Assembly: GCF_001544075.1 (NCBI RefSeq)
Contig: NZ_BCNT01000006.1
Coordinates: 186,001-250,000, forward strand
Length of the DNA: 64,000 bases
Reading direction: 5' to 3'
Origin: Comamonas terrae
GTDB taxonomy: Bacteria; Pseudomonadota; Gammaproteobacteria; Burkholderiales; Burkholderiaceae_C
This document shows, one piece after another, positions 15,527 through 20,960 of this stretch. The notes beneath the pieces were generated by a model. That model did no database searches. It had not been told where the DNA came from and was given only the letters and a program-made list of their open reading frames with translations. The position numbers and the translations under genes were made by a program. Position 1 is the stretch's first letter. The number at the start of each line of letters is the position of its first letter.

Positions 15527-16495
15527 ATGAACCGTAGAAACAGCCTTCTCTCGGTCATGGCGGCCGTTGCTGCCCTGGCCTCCCCGCTTGCCCTGGCGCA
15601 AGAGCCCATTCGCCTGATCGTGCCCTATGCGCCCGGTGGTCCGCTGGACATCACCTCGCGCGCCCTGGCCGAGCGTGTGCGTGACTCTCTTGGCGTGGTC
15701 ATCATCGAAAACAAGGCCGGCGCCGGCGGCAACATCGGTGCGGACGCCATTGCCAAGGCTGCGCCGGACGGTCTGACCATCGGCCTGGCGGCCACGGCCA
15801 CCCATGCCGTCAACCCCTGGCTCTACGCCAAGATGCCTTATGACGCAGGCAAGGACTTTGCCGGCATCACGCAGATGGTGCGCGTGCCCAATGTGCTGGT
15901 GATGAACGCGGCCCGTGCCGAGCAGCTCAAGATCCACAGCGTGGGCGACCTGATCGCCTACGCCAAGTCGCATCCCGGCAAGCTTAACTACGGCAGCGGC
16001 GGCAACGGCAGCGCGGGCCATCTGGCCGGCGAGATGCTCAAGCAGAAGGCCGGCATCTATGCCCTGCACGTACCCTACCGCGGCGCCAATCCGGCCCAGC
16101 TGGCCCTGCTGTCGGGCGAGGTGGACTTCAATATCGACAACCTGGCGGCCGCGGCGCCCAACATCAAGTCGGGCAAGCTCAAGGCCCTGGCCGTGACCTC
16201 GCTCGATGCCACGCCGCTGCTGCCCGGCGTGCCGGCCCTGTCCAAGACCTTCCCCGGGTTTGCGATCGATACCTGGTGGGGCCTGGTGGCTCCCGCTGGC
16301 ACGCCCAAGCCCGTGCTCGACAAGCTGAGCAAAGCCTTCAACGACGCCCTGCGCACACCCGAGACCAAGACCCGCTTCGAAGCCCTGATGGCCGAGCCCG
16401 TGGGTTCGAGCCCGGCGGAATTCGACAAGTTCATGGCCGCCGAGCGCAGCAAATACCAGGCCATCGTCAAGGCCTCCGGCGCCAAGGTCGACTGA
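15527..16495 (+). CDS. Bug-family tripartite tricarboxylate transporter substrate-binding protein
   Basis: A 322-residue periplasmic receptor of the TctC/Bug family, paralogous to the one at 1418-2386. The signal peptide is about 1-24 (ending PLALAQ), then comes PIRLIVPYAPGGPLDITSRA and, later, VPYRGANPAQLALLSGEVDF. The start at 15527 is the first Met of the signal peptide; I see no good ribosome-binding site. The upstream 80 bases are T-rich, including GCAATTTTTTGCACAAT, and may hold the promoter. No TctAB genes are present. The ligand is unknown. Confidence 0.92.
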   Translation: MNRRNSLLSVMAAVAALASPLALAQEPIRLIVPYAPGGPLDITSRALAERVRDSLGVVIIENKAGAGGNIGADAIAKAAPDGLTIGLAATATHAVNPWLYAKMPYDAGKDFAGITQMVRVPNVLVMNAARAEQLKIHSVGDLIAYAKSHPGKLNYGSGGNGSAGHLAGEMLKQKAGIYALHVPYRGANPAQLALLSGEVDFNIDNLAAAAPNIKSGKLKALAVTSLDATPLLPGVPALSKTFPGFAIDTWWGLVAPAGTPKPVLDKLSKAFNDALRTPETKTRFEALMAEPVGSSPAEFDKFMAAERSKYQAIVKASGAKVD

Positions 16496-16522
16496 GCCGT
16501 ATCCGGCGCCTGCCTGGAGCCC

Positions 16523-17398
16523 TTACCGGGACTCCAGGATCTGGTGCATGGGCCGCAGGCGGATGTTCTTGAACGCGACCCGCTCCGCGAACTCCAGAGA
16601 GCCCAGCACCGAAAACTCGATGAAGCGTGCGCGTGCCAGCGGGTCGGCCTGCCCGGTGGACAGGCCGGCATGGCACATCAGCAGGTCGCCGTTTTCCGCT
16701 GCCCCCAGCCAGCGCCAAAGCCTGCGGCCATAGGCCTGCGCATCGCCGCTGAAGTCGTAAACCCCCAGAAGCCTGCGGTTCTGCGCGACGGCGTGGCGCT
16801 GCGCCAGCAAGGCCAGTGCGCGCGACCCCAGCGCGGCAATCACCTCGGCTTTCGCCCAGGTTCCCCAATCGGCATGGGCCTTGCGCGACGGGCCGCGTGT
16901 GTTGCGCAGCCAGGGCATCCGTCCGGTGTTTCGCTCCGGATAGCGAAGCAGCAGCTCTTGCACCAGCAGCGAGCGCACCACGGGCAGCTGGTGCACATGC
17001 TGGTGCCCGTCCACATAGGCTGGAGCGCGCCCCAACGCATCCTCGAACGCGTCGAACTGGGCACGGATCTCGCTGCGCAGCTGCGCCACATTCAGCCGGC
17101 CCGCATAGGCGCGCCCAATCGCCTCCTTGAGCGGCATGCGGATGCCCGCCTGCAACGGGCATTCGGTCAGATCCAGGTGCAGCCCCACATCCACGCCCTG
17201 CGGGTCAAGCAGGCTCAGCTCTCTGGCGCCGGCACTCCAGGCCGGGCCGCCCACCTGGGCCGAAACCGCCTGCACGCGGCCCATGCCCACCAGCGCCAGC
17301 ACGGCTTCGTTGATTCCCCGGTGCAAGCCGAAATCGTCCACGCACACACAGATTTCACGCGCGCTGCTATGCTGCCACCGCTCATGTCTCGCTCGCAT
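16523..17398 (-). CDS. ChbG/YdjC/HpnK-family deacetylase, LgmC/NaxD-like
   Basis: A 291-residue metal-dependent carbohydrate deacetylase of the YdjC/ChbG fold. Metal and catalytic motifs are VDDFGLHRG (D21, D22), LHLDLTE with H74, and YVDGHQHVHQLP with H132, H134 and H136. In Francisella NaxD and Bordetella LgmC, members of this family deacetylate undecaprenyl-phosphate-N-acetylhexosamine before its transfer to lipid A. The neighbouring GtrA, ArnT-like and GT2 genes make the same role likely here (inference). HpnK or chitooligosaccharide deacetylase are alternatives. The 5' end overlaps the divergent gtrA gene by about 15 bases. Confidence 0.85.
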   Translation of the reverse strand: MRARHERWQHSSAREICVCVDDFGLHRGINEAVLALVGMGRVQAVSAQVGGPAWSAGARELSLLDPQGVDVGLHLDLTECPLQAGIRMPLKEAIGRAYAGRLNVAQLRSEIRAQFDAFEDALGRAPAYVDGHQHVHQLPVVRSLLVQELLLRYPERNTGRMPWLRNTRGPSRKAHADWGTWAKAEVIAALGSRALALLAQRHAVAQNRRLLGVYDFSGDAQAYGRRLWRWLGAAENGDLLMCHAGLSTGQADPLARARFIEFSVLGSLEFAERVAFKNIRLRPMHQILESR

Positions 17399-17800
17399 TT
17401 CCCGCCTCTCTCCCGCTCATCTCAGCTTGGCCATATCGGCTGGTTCATCATGGTCGGCTGTGCCGCAGCCGCCGTGCACTGGTGCGTCGCCATTGCTGCC
17501 GTGACCTGGGCGAAGTGGCCCCCGCTGCTGGCCAACGCCGCAGGCTGGATGGTGGCCGTTGGCGTTTCTTTCACCGGCCACCACCTGCTCAGCTTCCGCG
17601 GCCATGGCACGGCCATGCTGCCCGCGGCCCTGCGCTTTCTCTGCATCTCCGGCGGCGGCTTTCTCGTCAACGAGGCTGCCTATGCAGCCCTGCTGCACTG
17701 GACCGGCGCCCGCTACGACGTGCTGCTGGCCGCCGTGCTGGTGCTGGTCGCAGGCGCTACCTACCTGCTGAGCCGCCATTGGGCATTTCTGCGCAGCTAG
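17384..17800 (+). CDS. GtrA-family lipid-linked sugar flippase, LgmD-like
   Basis: A 138-residue membrane protein with four predicted helices. GtrA features are visible: an N-terminal GWFIMVGC-type helix, the central FTGHHLLSFRGH, and the C-terminal LSRHWAFLRS. GtrA proteins are thought to flip undecaprenyl-phosphate sugars. The gene is on the opposite strand to its probable partners. Its start overlaps the deacetylase start (an ATG at 17369 is an alternative) and its last 44 bases overlap the 3' end of the ArnT-like gene. Both overlapping proteins are convincing, so the sandwich is real rather than an annotation artefact. Confidence 0.85.
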   Translation: MSRSHFPPLSRSSQLGHIGWFIMVGCAAAAVHWCVAIAAVTWAKWPPLLANAAGWMVAVGVSFTGHHLLSFRGHGTAMLPAALRFLCISGGGFLVNEAAYAALLHWTGARYDVLLAAVLVLVAGATYLLSRHWAFLRS

Positions 17801-19322
17801 GCAGCACCTGCCGGGGGTCCACGCGCCACAGCGTCTGGCCATGCTCGGAAAAGACCGGCGCGACCTGGGCCAGCAGCGGCAGCATCTGCGTCGCCTGTGC
17901 ATCGCCGACCACCCAGGCCGCTTCATTGCCGCACAGCGCCGCAGGCAGCTGCTGCGGCGTGACCAGCACCTGGCCGGCCAGCGCCGGATCGAAGGCGCCT
18001 GCATCGACCATTTCCCGGCGCCAGTTGTCGCGCCGCGCAATCTCGGGGCTCTGCCAGTCGTCCACGATGCGCACCGGCCGGTCGAGCCCTGCGTAGAACG
18101 GCAGGTCGTACACATACTCCCCGAGCATGTAGACCGGTTCGCCAGGCTGGTGGCGGGCTTTCAGTACCTGCCCCATGTGACGCGCCGAGTAGCGCGGATT
18201 CGCGGTCAGCGCCAGCACCACGCCCAGGCCGATGAGCGCGCTGATGGCCAGGCTGACCCTCCACCACGAACGGCTTTTTCGCGATGCCTGCGCCCGCTGG
18301 CCGGCATCGGCCATCAGCCAGGCCAGCGCCGGCACGGCAGGCAGGATGTAGCCGATCAGCTTGGACTGGGGCAGCGAGAAGAAGAGCGTCACGCAACCCG
18401 CCATCAATGCCATCAGCAGGCGTACATCGCCGGGCGTTCCTTCGGCCCGCCAATAGCCGCGCGTGAACGCGGGGCGCGACCACAGAATGCAGGGCAGGCT
18501 GCAGCCGGCCAGCACGGCCGGATAGAACCAGAAGGGCTGGACGTTGTTGAAGCCGCCTGCGGCAAAGCGCTGGAAATGCTGTACCACGAAGAAGTAATGC
18601 AGAAAGCTGTCGAAACGCTGCTGCATGAGCACGAACCAGGGCGCCGCCACCAACATGAAGAGAAGGGCCCCGGGCAGCGACAGCAGCGCCAGCAGGCTGC
18701 GCCAGCGCCGGCGCAAGATCAGCCACAGGCCCACGATCATTGCCGGCAGGACAAAGCCGATCAGGCCTTTGGCCAGCACGCCCAGTGCCGAAAGCCCGTA
18801 GGCCAGCCACAGCGCGCGGCGATCCGGCTGGCCCGCTTCGAAGCTCAGCGCCGCATGGGCCAGGGCCAGCACCGTGGCCGTGATGCAGCCGGCCACCAGC
18901 ATGTCCAGGTTGGCAAACTGCGCTCCCAGAAAGAACAGCGGCTGCACCGCCAGCACGATGACGGCGCGGCGGGCGGATGCCATCCCGCACCAGCGCCGCA
19001 CAAACAGGTAGAGCGCGATCGCGCCCAGCGTGGCGCCCGCCAGCGATGCGGAGCGCGCCGCCAGCTCGCTTGAGCCCGTCATACCCATGGCCGCGCCGGA
19101 AATCCAGTAGAACAGCGGCGGCTTGTGAAAGAAAGGCAGGCCGTTGAGCGTCGGCGTGAGCCAGTCGCCCGAGCGCAGCATCTCCAGAGCCACGGACGCA
19201 TAGCGCCCTTCGTCGGGCAGCATCAGGGGCCGCAGCCATGCGGTGGCGCCCAGCCACAGAACCACCAGGGCCAGCACCTTCCAGCCGTCCTGCCGCGACA
19301 AGCTTGCTTCGGCCGTGCTCAT
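17757..19322 (-). CDS. ArnT-like (GT83) lipid A glycosyltransferase, LgmB/FlmK-like
   Basis: A 521-residue inner-membrane glycosyltransferase of the GT-C fold with about 11-13 helices. The ArnT signature is at the N-terminus: LPDEGRYASVALEML with the catalytic-type D37/E38 pair in the first periplasmic loop, then FFHKPPLFYW. The family transfers an amino sugar from undecaprenyl phosphate to lipid A phosphate. The start codon overlaps the stop of the upstream GT2 gene (ATGA), so the two are translationally coupled. Together with the deacetylase and GtrA gene this points to lipid A hexosamine addition. The sugar itself cannot be read. Confidence 0.9.
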   Translation of the reverse strand: MSTAEASLSRQDGWKVLALVVLWLGATAWLRPLMLPDEGRYASVALEMLRSGDWLTPTLNGLPFFHKPPLFYWISGAAMGMTGSSELAARSASLAGATLGAIALYLFVRRWCGMASARRAVIVLAVQPLFFLGAQFANLDMLVAGCITATVLALAHAALSFEAGQPDRRALWLAYGLSALGVLAKGLIGFVLPAMIVGLWLILRRRWRSLLALLSLPGALLFMLVAAPWFVLMQQRFDSFLHYFFVVQHFQRFAAGGFNNVQPFWFYPAVLAGCSLPCILWSRPAFTRGYWRAEGTPGDVRLLMALMAGCVTLFFSLPQSKLIGYILPAVPALAWLMADAGQRAQASRKSRSWWRVSLAISALIGLGVVLALTANPRYSARHMGQVLKARHQPGEPVYMLGEYVYDLPFYAGLDRPVRIVDDWQSPEIARRDNWRREMVDAGAFDPALAGQVLVTPQQLPAALCGNEAAWVVGDAQATQMLPLLAQVAPVFSEHGQTLWRVDPRQVLPSCAEMPNGGSAGR

Positions 19323-20359
19323 GCGTCCTCCCTGATACCCTGGCCGAGTTCGCGCTTGACCAGGAACAGAGGCCGCCGCTTGACCTCTTCATAAATGCGC
19401 CCGACATACTCGCCCACCACGCCCAGCGAAACCAGCTGCACGCCGGCAAACAGCATGAGACTGACCACGATCGTGGTCCAGCCGCTCACATTGTGGCCAT
19501 ACAGCAGATAGACCAGCGTGAGGTAGGCGCCGTAGGCAAATGCGCCCAGCGCCAGCAGGAAGCCCAGGCCGATCACCGCGCGCAGCGGCCACACCGTGAA
19601 GGCCATGATGCCGTCAAGCGCCAGCCGGATCAGGCGCAGCTTGTTGAAATGGCTCACGCCATGCGCGCGCGCGTCGGGCACGTAGGGCACGGCCACCGCA
19701 TCGAACCCCACCCAGGCATACAGGCCCTTCATGAAACGGTTGCGCTCGGGCAGGTCCAGCAGCGCCTGCACCACCTTGCGATCCATCAGGCGGAAGTCGC
19801 CAGCATCTTCCGGCACCTTGAAGCGACCGCCGTGGTTGAGCAGGCTATAGAACCAGTGCGTTCCTACGCGCTTGAAGCGGCTTTCGGCATCGCGGTGCGC
19901 ACGCACCGCATAGACCACGTCGGCGCCGGCACTCCAGTGCCGCACAAAGGTGTCCAGCAGCGCCAGGGGATGCTGCAGGTCGGCATCCATCATGATGGTG
20001 ATTTCGCCCCGTGCGGCCTGCAGTCCGGCCGTCAGCGCCGCCTCCTTGCCGAAGTTGCGCGACAGCCGCAACGCACGCACGCCGGGGCGCTGGGTCCAGT
20101 GCCGCAGCCGCGCTTCGGTGTCGTCCGTGCTGCCATCATCGACCACCAGAATTTCCCACAAAGGAGCAAGGTGAGCGAGCTTGGCGCACAGCAGGGGCAG
20201 AAGGCGGTCCAGGTTCTCCGCCTCGTTGTAGCAGGGCAGCACGCAGGAAATGGAGTGTGCGCTGCGCATGGCCGAGGCGACTGGGCCGGAGCTGCCCAGC
20301 GCAATTTCGCGAGGCGGCAGCCATGCCTCCCGCATCAGCAAATGGTCACTCACAGGCAA
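19319..20359 (-). CDS. GT2 undecaprenyl-phosphate sugar transferase, ArnC/LgmA-like
   Basis: A 346-residue family 2 glycosyltransferase with a C-terminal pair of membrane helices (about 260-325). This is the GtrB/ArnC/DPM1 architecture that loads a sugar onto undecaprenyl phosphate. Motifs: VLPCYNEAENL at 40-50, VVDDGSTDDT near 72-81, DADLQHP at 125-131 (metal-binding DxD), RNRFMKGLYAW, and VGEYVGRIYEEVK near the end. The first 30 residues are not conserved, so M31 (20269) is an alternative start. It precedes the ArnT-like gene with a 4-base overlap. A terminator hairpin lies only 13 bases upstream of the 20359 start. Confidence 0.88.
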   Translation of the reverse strand: MPVSDHLLMREAWLPPREIALGSSGPVASAMRSAHSISCVLPCYNEAENLDRLLPLLCAKLAHLAPLWEILVVDDGSTDDTEARLRHWTQRPGVRALRLSRNFGKEAALTAGLQAARGEITIMMDADLQHPLALLDTFVRHWSAGADVVYAVRAHRDAESRFKRVGTHWFYSLLNHGGRFKVPEDAGDFRLMDRKVVQALLDLPERNRFMKGLYAWVGFDAVAVPYVPDARAHGVSHFNKLRLIRLALDGIMAFTVWPLRAVIGLGFLLALGAFAYGAYLTLVYLLYGHNVSGWTTIVVSLMLFAGVQLVSLGVVGEYVGRIYEEVKRRPLFLVKRELGQGIREDA

Positions 20360-20371
20360 ACCTCAGTATGA

Positions 20372-20398
20372 AAAAGCAACATGTTTCGCCATGTTGCT
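20372..20398 (-). terminator. Rho-independent terminator after folK
   Basis: On the minus strand a perfect 8-bp stem, GCAACATG / CATGTTGC, with loop GCGAAA is followed by TTTTT. It ends the pcnB-folK transcript 56 bases beyond the folK stop. It sits immediately before the GT2 gene. Confidence 0.85.
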
Positions 20399-20453
20399 GC
20401 TTCCACCTGAAAGTTAACTTAATGGATGGCCGCTGCATGCAGCCCGGCAGGCC

Positions 20454-20960
20454 TCAGAGCCGGTACCAGTCTCCGGGCGCCGCGACCGCCTCGATGCGCT
20501 GGTCCGCCACCGAGGCCAGCTGCGCAGCCGTCACACCGGCGCCCGGCAGCTCGGCCATGGGATGCAGCACAAAGGCGCGCTCCAGCATCCGCGGGTGCGG
20601 CAGCGTCAGGCGCTCGCTCTGCATCTGCAGATCGCCAAAGCGCAGCAGATCCAGATCCAGCGTGCGCGGCGCGTTGCGGTAAGGGCGCTCCCTGCCGGCC
20701 GCCAGCTCGATGGCCTGCAGCGCATCGAGCAGCTCCAGCGCCGCCAGCCGGGTGGCGGCAACGGCCACGGCATTGAAATAGTCGGGGCCGCCCGCATCCA
20801 CCGGCGCACTGCGGTACAGCGAGGAAAGCTGCAGCACACGCGTTTGCGGCAAGGCCGCGATGCTGCGCACCGCGGTGCACAGCGCATTCCTCGCGTCCCC
20901 GAGATTGGCACCCAGCCCGATCCAGGCCAGCTGCGCTTCTTCCTGCAAATCGGCAGCCAT
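20454..20960 (-). CDS. folK: 2-amino-4-hydroxy-6-hydroxymethyldihydropteridine pyrophosphokinase
   Basis: A 168-residue HPPK, which pyrophosphorylates the pterin in folate synthesis. Conserved parts are LGANLGD near the start, YFNAVA, and the signature RTLDLDLLRFG followed by LPHPRMLERAFVL. The start at 20960 lies 4 bases after the pcnB stop, so the two are cotranscribed. The pcnB-folK order is typical of proteobacteria. Confidence 0.95.
   Translation of the reverse strand: MAADLQEEAQLAWIGLGANLGDARNALCTAVRSIAALPQTRVLQLSSLYRSAPVDAGGPDYFNAVAVAATRLAALELLDALQAIELAAGRERPYRNAPRTLDLDLLRFGDLQMQSERLTLPHPRMLERAFVLHPMAELPGAGVTAAQLASVADQRIEAVAAPGDWYRL

Follow-up and report, generated by a model that had tools for sequence, protein, structure and literature searches.

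A putative lipid A hexosamine-modification locus in Comamonas terrae, with gtrA embedded antisense between the arnT-like and ydjC genes

Four genes that lie together in Comamonas terrae are the subject of this report. They occur in a window of 64,000 nucleotides (nt; contig NZ_BCNT01000006.1, positions 186,001 to 250,000), which is the whole stretch of DNA analysed and to which all coordinates refer. Three are encoded on the minus strand: GT2, for a polyprenyl-phosphate hexosaminyl transferase that is of GtrB/ArnC type by family (19319..20359; Pfam PF00535, 2e-32, and matches in the Protein Data Bank, PDB); an arnT-like gene, for a GT-C transferase with FHKP replacing FEKP (17757..19322; PRK13279, PDB 5ezm and relatives); and ydjC, for a deacetylase of the YdjC fold within the NaxD/ChbG/HpnK superfamily (16523..17398; Pfam YdjC, 9.6e-43). 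Between the last two, on the plus strand, lies gtrA, the gene for a proposed flippase (17384..17800, or from an alternative ATG at 17369; Pfam GtrA_DPMS_TM, 3.7e-19). In a Pfam scan Glycos_transf_2, PMT and PMT_2, GtrA_DPMS_TM and YdjC were all above their gathering cut-offs. GT2 and the arnT-like gene overlap by 4 nt, the arnT-like gene and gtrA overlap tail to tail by 44 nt (17757..17800), and gtrA and ydjC overlap head to head by 15 nt (17384..17398), or by 30 nt from the ATG at 17369. A sequence-only reading of the window had described this cluster, the opposite strand of gtrA, its 44-base overlap with the 3′ end of the arnT-like gene and an overlap of about 15 bases with the 5′ end of ydjC; the open reading frame (ORF) coordinates and Pfam assignments bear out each of these points. 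The true start of GT2 is more likely the GTG at 20353 than the TTG at 20359, because GAGG stands seven nt upstream of the former; the ydjC ATG is preceded by GAGAGG, six nt upstream. The genome of 4.7 Mb holds one match each to PF02366, PF04138 and the window's YdjC protein, all at this locus, and the gtrA product is its sole PF04138 match.

The nearest PDB protein to the GT2 product is the GtrB-type sll0501 (1.6e-77), followed by ArnC (4.6e-42). Both the ArnT of PDB 5ezm (E 3e-43) and the PRK13279 ArnT model (3.8e-53, 180.9 bits, below the cut-off of 567) match the ArnT-like protein, whose closest relatives reach 69-71% identity. Equivalents of eight ArnT positions, which we take to be D55, R58, Y59, K85, D158, K203, R270 and Y345, are kept in 88/88 ArnT-like rows, the set left after duplicates were dropped, and in 20/20 rows of a distant group. 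Y59, K85 and R270 correspond to residues (Y43, K69 and R254) reported to be needed in Burkholderia ArnT, in work that also describes the motifs RYA and YFEKP as common to all ArnT proteins (PMC5377068). The RY is retained here, while the E of FEKP is replaced by H in all 88 rows and in all 20 rows of the distant group; FHKP is likely to mark a different sugar or metal site. Eight D/H positions of the deacetylase are invariant in 61/61 YdjC rows (the window being counted twice). For GtrA, a structure database search found no solved relative at E 0.1.

A GT2, an ArnT-type GT-C and a YdjC-type deacetylase in one cluster, whether GtrA is present or not, constitute the gene set of the Lgm/Flm module, and the identification of the four genes as a lipid A hexosamine-modification module of this kind is well supported but indirect, being drawn from families, residues and gene order. 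To judge by family and residues, the GT2 protein would load N-acetylhexosamine on undecaprenyl phosphate at the cytoplasmic face, YdjC would deacetylate the lipid-linked N-acetylhexosamine, and the ArnT-like enzyme would transfer the hexosamine to a lipid A phosphate in the periplasm; GtrA, by its family, would help to flip the lipid-linked hexosamine. The best ArnB score in the genome is 196.6 bits, below the cut-off of 631, and the genome has no PF13243 match for a squalene-hopene cyclase; readings based on 4-amino-4-deoxy-L-arabinose (L-Ara4N) and on hopanoids are therefore disfavoured. The proposal that hexosamine is attached to lipid A, made from the window alone, has thus been strengthened by the ArnT and deacetylase residues, by these two genomic results and by a PmrA-type box, and stands as a prediction. 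Such modification affects surface charge, cationic peptide resistance and immune sensing. With FHKP as a marker motif it can be predicted in environmental beta-proteobacteria, examples being Acidovorax, Simplicispira, Ramlibacter, Piscinibacter and Thiobacillus. For some of these bacteria, though not for Simplicispira or Thiobacillus, a promoter of PmrA type is predicted as well.

In Francisella, FlmF2, NaxD and FlmK are a GT2, a YdjC-type deacetylase and an ArnT-like transferase, respectively, and the likeness to the present enzymes is one of family. The sugar in Francisella and Acinetobacter is galactosamine (GalN), whereas no specific hexosamine is assigned here; we know of no embedded antisense gtrA in those systems. 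The lgmA-D cluster of Bordetella, which includes an ArnT ortholog, is reported to place glucosamine on lipid A phosphates (PMC11401268, PMC4993483, PMC5454989), a subject also covered by PMC11895810, and hexosamine on lipid A phosphates is reported for Pandoraea (PMC8052242). The present locus resembles lgmABCD in being a cluster with an ArnT-type enzyme for lipid A hexosamine, here as predicted from genes alone, and differs in its regulation, which is described as BvgAS-dependent in Bordetella, whereas a PmrA-type box is found here.

The arrangement of the four genes was compared across relatives. ArnT matches at E 1e-20 were found in 168 of the 399 genomes of a family sample, from which 30 loci were kept, and the best 80 of 349 matches in further genomes were added, giving 110 loci (L032-L141, with the window as L032). 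ArnT and GtrA genes stand tail to tail, an arrangement here termed layout I, in 41 of the 110, window included. Most of these (37) have GT2, ArnT, GtrA and YdjC in that order, with GtrA alone on the other strand, three lack GT2 or YdjC (two being copies of one contig, at the contig end), and one has a split GtrA. The ArnT and GtrA frames overlap in 40 of the 41, by 23 to 134 nt and always by 2 mod 3; the remaining locus, L052, has a 5-nt gap. Removal of duplicates between sample genomes and contigs took away six of the 41 and left 35 distinct loci, and 20 duplicate identifiers were dropped from the tree, box and residue counts. The taxa include Comamonadaceae, Sphaerotilaceae, Thiobacillaceae, Accumulibacter and Thermomonas. 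Layout I also occurs in a bin labelled Rhizobium (L136), a label that is probably wrong because its ArnT is almost identical to that of Thiobacillus. A GtrA profile search of an equally large family sample matched 105 of 399 genomes at E 1e-20, and where GtrA lay within 2.5 kb of an entered ArnT place the two were convergent in 53 of 54 cases (G153 being the other), in 30 genera by hand count. The ArnT places entered were the listed matches to about E 5e-47, weaker and unlisted ones being left out, and the 51 GtrA matches counted as far may include some with an ArnT neighbour below that value. The shared arrangement is more than chance, because it is the same in 41/110 loci. On that count and on the 53/54 pairs, the suggestion that it is unique to this genome was rejected. 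The antisense layout is therefore present as the sequence-only reading had it and is not confined to this locus, being widespread and conserved; the synteny comparison that had been proposed as a check places it in 35 distinct loci over several orders.

The other 69 loci comprise 36 with ArnT alone, 15 with GT2, ArnT and YdjC, 10 in the order GT2, YdjC, ArnT, five with GT2 and ArnT, and three singles; some of the ArnT-alone class may be incomplete, as its family-sample loci have a flank of only 1.5 kb and several others lie near a contig end. One of the singles, L079, has GtrA on the ArnT strand; this GtrA is a long branch, and the GT2 of the locus falls among distant collinear sets. A second tail-to-tail arrangement, layout II, is represented by 20 distant loci (ArnT 38 to 44% identical) fetched out of the 53 convergent ones. 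In 19/20 YdjC and ArnT come first and are followed, on the opposite strand, by GtrA and GT2; the fetched stretch of L200 showed no YdjC. The ArnT and GtrA frames again overlap tail to tail in 20/20, at 0 mod 3. A single junction common to both layouts is not supported by these phases (2 mod 3 vs 0 mod 3), although an altered frame in the ArnT tail could account for the difference. GtrA is rarer across a class-wide sample (20/369 genomes, the window's included), and in the 19 other fetched loci it lies on the GT2 or YdjC strand in 16 and alone in three; in one of the 16 (L168) a gap of 148 nt separates GtrA from an ArnT-like gene that it faces.

Upstream of GT2 on the minus strand is a PmrA-type direct repeat, ATTAAG-N5-TTTCAG (20407..20423), which scores 10/12 against YTTAAG-N5-YTTAAG (p 0.025, from shuffles of this stretch alone) and departs from HTTAAD-N5-HTTAAD at one position of its second half. 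HTTAAD-N5-HTTAAD is given as the PmrA motif in PMC9431647, which places a PmrA box upstream of naxD in Acinetobacter, a likeness to the present locus; the box type likewise agrees with the PmrA motif in PMC3973317, and PmrA control of Acinetobacter naxD is reported in PMC9431647 and PMC10215926. Related loci have stronger forms, L104 for example with CTTAAG-N5-TTTAAG. Of the 34 distinct layout I loci, 14 score at least 10/12, vs 23 of 2252 background windows taken from these loci; 8/24 loci with ArnT alone also reach that score. When the four loci in which the box was discovered are set aside, 11 of 30 layout I loci still score at least 10. Read on the reverse strand, these upstream stretches do so almost as often (12/34), which the palindromic CTTAAG would lead one to expect. 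In layout I the box is found upstream of ydjC in 0/34 loci, of gtrA in 0/34 and of arnT-like in 1/35. The exact pattern used for a genome search was fitted to the window, which biases its low chance expectation; a second genomic match (C18, L229), among genes without assigned names, looks like chance. No sigma-70-like promoter was found within 16300-20700, and neither inspection of the alignment by eye nor the scan for PmrA-type boxes revealed a shared gtrA promoter motif inside ydjC.

The history of the layout was approached with quick trees, the GtrA tree being built from few columns. It joins in one set (96*) the 36 layout I rows, three loci in which GT2, antisense GtrA and YdjC occur without ArnT between them, and L133, a locus grouped as lacking gtrA at this place, where gtrA is instead found upstream of GT2, on the opposite strand. 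Among the loci in the tree, this clade has no member on the operon strand. In the GT2 tree, layout I, the loci without gtrA and the GT2-YdjC-ArnT loci form one clade (99*) and layout II a separate one (100*). The layouts do not group together on the ArnT tree, where gtrA presence changes many times, a pattern that repeated loss of gtrA would produce; counts of these changes cannot separate gain from loss. Since GtrA forms one set and the overlap has one phase, a single origin of layout I in its lineage, with gtrA then kept or lost, is supported by these sequence comparisons.

Loci without gtrA also indicate how the outer genes are related. In 16 of 17 such loci (15 distinct; L118 was left out) the ydjC start lies between 43 nt before and 42 nt after the arnT-like stop, and in 8/16 it is at -1 or -4 nt from that stop, so that the two frames overlap by 1 or 4 nt and the three genes resemble a tight operon. 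Because the outer genes abut or nearly abut where gtrA is missing, GT2, arnT-like and ydjC would form one operon, and the box suggests that it would stand behind a PmrA-type promoter. Its transcript would carry the complement of the embedded gtrA; transcription of gtrA would in turn yield RNA antisense to the end of arnT-like, and perhaps to sequence further on. Terminator-like hairpins on the operon strand across gtrA were found in 0/34 layout I loci, so read-through from arnT-like to ydjC would be unhindered as far as the scan tells; on the gtrA strand, hairpins within 250 nt after gtrA were found in 4/34, so the gtrA transcript would usually continue antisense into arnT-like. By layout the arrangement is a noncontiguous operon, its single-operon status being deduced from relatives. 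An opposite-strand gene within an operon is reported for menE-menC-MW1733-ytkD-MW1731 of Staphylococcus aureus, where transcripts were demonstrated, whereas the present case is one of gene layout alone (PMC7154746). It differs further in that the embedded gene is proposed to serve the same pathway and in that the layout extends across several orders. The antisense-gtrA layout appeared in no title or abstract opening among the literature matches listed, most subscription journals lying outside them. The enzymes are already known in kind and the embedded antisense gtrA is the new part.

The whole proposal, an Lgm/Flm-kind module in one operon with a PmrA-type promoter, an embedded antisense gtrA and a layout of single origin, is the account that we favour with moderate confidence, and several points weigh against it. 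The module reading draws on gene sequence and layout, and the likeness to the Bordetella and Francisella loci was drawn from gene family and description. The positions that we take to be the zinc ligands of ArnT, E84 and H265, are H66 and V247 in the ArnT-like protein, so its mechanism may differ. The box is present in under half of layout I loci and was first spotted by eye in four of them (the window, L034, L064 and L073). It is rare in the other groups, with 2/14 loci without gtrA, 0/9 GT2-YdjC-ArnT loci and, in layout II, 1/19 upstream of YdjC and 0/18 upstream of GT2. PMC9431647 and PMC10215926 report no GalN-lipid A in the Acinetobacter strains studied; a box with naxD does not guarantee a hexosamine product. 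At E 1e-8, gtrA is absent genome-wide in nine of 13 genomes with gtrA-less loci (the remaining four have weak GtrA matches, 9e-9 to 2e-11). Because gtrA is missing at many such loci and in these nine genomes, it is, on the genomic evidence, dispensable and cannot be essential to the module. In Bordetella, PMC4993483 reports lgmA, lgmB and lgmC as required and lgmD of the same cluster as not essential. If lgmD is the gtrA gene, the flippase may be optional, as the gtrA-less loci also suggest. Finally, a convergent overlap can persist merely since overlaps are hard to undo.

This last point leads to the strongest alternative, which accepts the enzymes as proposed and takes the antisense layout as a neutral relic, with a ydjC promoter inside gtrA and overlaps that reflect compaction; we regard it as a possible but doubtful explanation. 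Inherited overlaps in a single phase fit one event and inertia. Against it, gtrA presence changes often on the ArnT tree, yet no member of the clade was found on the operon strand, and convergent ArnT and GtrA genes recur in a distinct second clade, where the overlap has a different phase. Head-to-head genes can each host a promoter in the coding part of the partner and the GAGAGG before the ydjC ATG is in keeping with this, whereas the lack of a box upstream of ydjC and of a hairpin across gtrA, each in 34 loci, and the start of ydjC at or near the arnT-like end in relatives without gtrA count against this account.

The sequence-only reading held that the antisense layout could couple expression of the parts, and this has gained comparative support from the shared layout, the single clade, the abutting ydjC of relatives and the lack of hairpins, while remaining a prediction. 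A more specific form of the idea is that, in a noncontiguous operon of long conservation, gtrA mRNA is an antisense regulator of the operon it serves, such that strong gtrA transcription lowers arnT-like and ydjC, and PmrA-driven transcription of the operon lowers gtrA; we put this forward tentatively, as improbable on present evidence. If true, mutual antisense control would balance or switch the supply of lipid-linked hexosamine against its transfer. On the same tentative footing, the two clades and two overlap phases may mean that the tail-to-tail arrangement arose twice, and two independent origins, if real, would indicate selection for the layout. The antisense-embedded gene in 35 distinct loci, together with natural relatives that lack it, provides a series for testing antisense coupling.

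A different target for the module is considered unlikely. Gtr three-component systems likewise combine a GtrB-like GT2 with GtrA, the proposed flippase, and a periplasmic GT-C (PMC11127046), and the nearest PDB match of the GT2 here is of GtrB type; the module might then decorate O-antigen, a core sugar or protein in the Gtr manner, rather than lipid A. The present locus differs from Gtr systems in that its GT-C is ArnT-like, a deacetylase is present and gtrA is antisense, and the box is of a type that belongs to lipid A-modifying regulons in the account of PMC9431647. Attachment of L-Ara4N as by an ordinary ArnT is very improbable in spite of the ArnT homology: this identity was rejected on the bit score below the PRK13279 cut-off, on FHKP in place of the FEKP of L-Ara4N transferases (H in 88/88 rows) and on ArnB under its cut-off, and a YdjC deacetylase adjoins. 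Equally remote is a bystander YdjC from hopanoid (HpnK) or chitin-disaccharide (ChbG) metabolism, as both models match weakly and were rejected (58.1 bits vs 232.6 for TIGR03473, HpnK, with squalene-hopene cyclase absent from the genome; 53.7 vs 227 for NF002559, ChbG), and the linkage with GT2 and ArnT-like recurs across loci.

Of 36 genus mates, 28 have a YdjC match, with identities of 37 to 45%. In 17 of the 18 loci fetched at length (L142-L157, L159, L160) GT2, GtrA and YdjC lie on a single strand; in L159 GtrA was not found. This divergence and these one-strand sets led to rejection of the view that the window carries the usual version of the genus. Four genus-mate neighbourhoods were read: in L142, L151 and L159 a different GT-C, with a KHPP motif, is encoded ahead of GT2 and in the same direction, and in L153 another GT-C is divergent from GT2. 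Three of these four GT-C neighbours were scanned and match PMT_2 only. The sets of L142 and L151 lie between what we take, from sequence, to be genes for a putative membrane transporter and an asparaginase.

Further arrangements were seen among relatives. The ArnT-like frame of L192 is open right across the antisense gtrA, giving an ORF overlap of 450 nt. GtrA is antisense to YdjC in L204, L205, L206 and L215, and in L204-L206 also to GT2, and ArnT is missing from between them; the genomes of L206 (G118) and L215 (G121) have an ArnT-like gene at another place. A one-strand order of GT2, YdjC and ArnT, with no GtrA nearby, is found in L112, L115, L116, L119, L122, L127, L130, L131 and L135, and this order occurs in Aquabacterium and other Burkholderiales.

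The neighbours of the locus are folK, upstream of GT2 on the minus strand, with what is presumably, from its sequence, a pcnB-like gene further upstream on that strand, and, downstream, genes for a TctC-type binding protein and a ferredoxin reductase-like protein on the plus strand. A terminator-like hairpin in the folK/GT2 gap (20375..20398, minus strand; three such sites were found vs 2.8 expected in shuffles) is probably the end of the folK transcript; it follows the PmrA-type box directly, so the folK terminator may share sequence with the GT2 promoter. At this folK-tctC site, four close relatives (L062, L033, L065 and L068), a Comamonas metagenome-assembled genome included, carry the ArnT-like gene by itself. 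Of these, L062 has GtrA at another place in its genome, and the genome of L033 (G201) has a collinear GT2-GtrA-YdjC set elsewhere (L213), making a split system.

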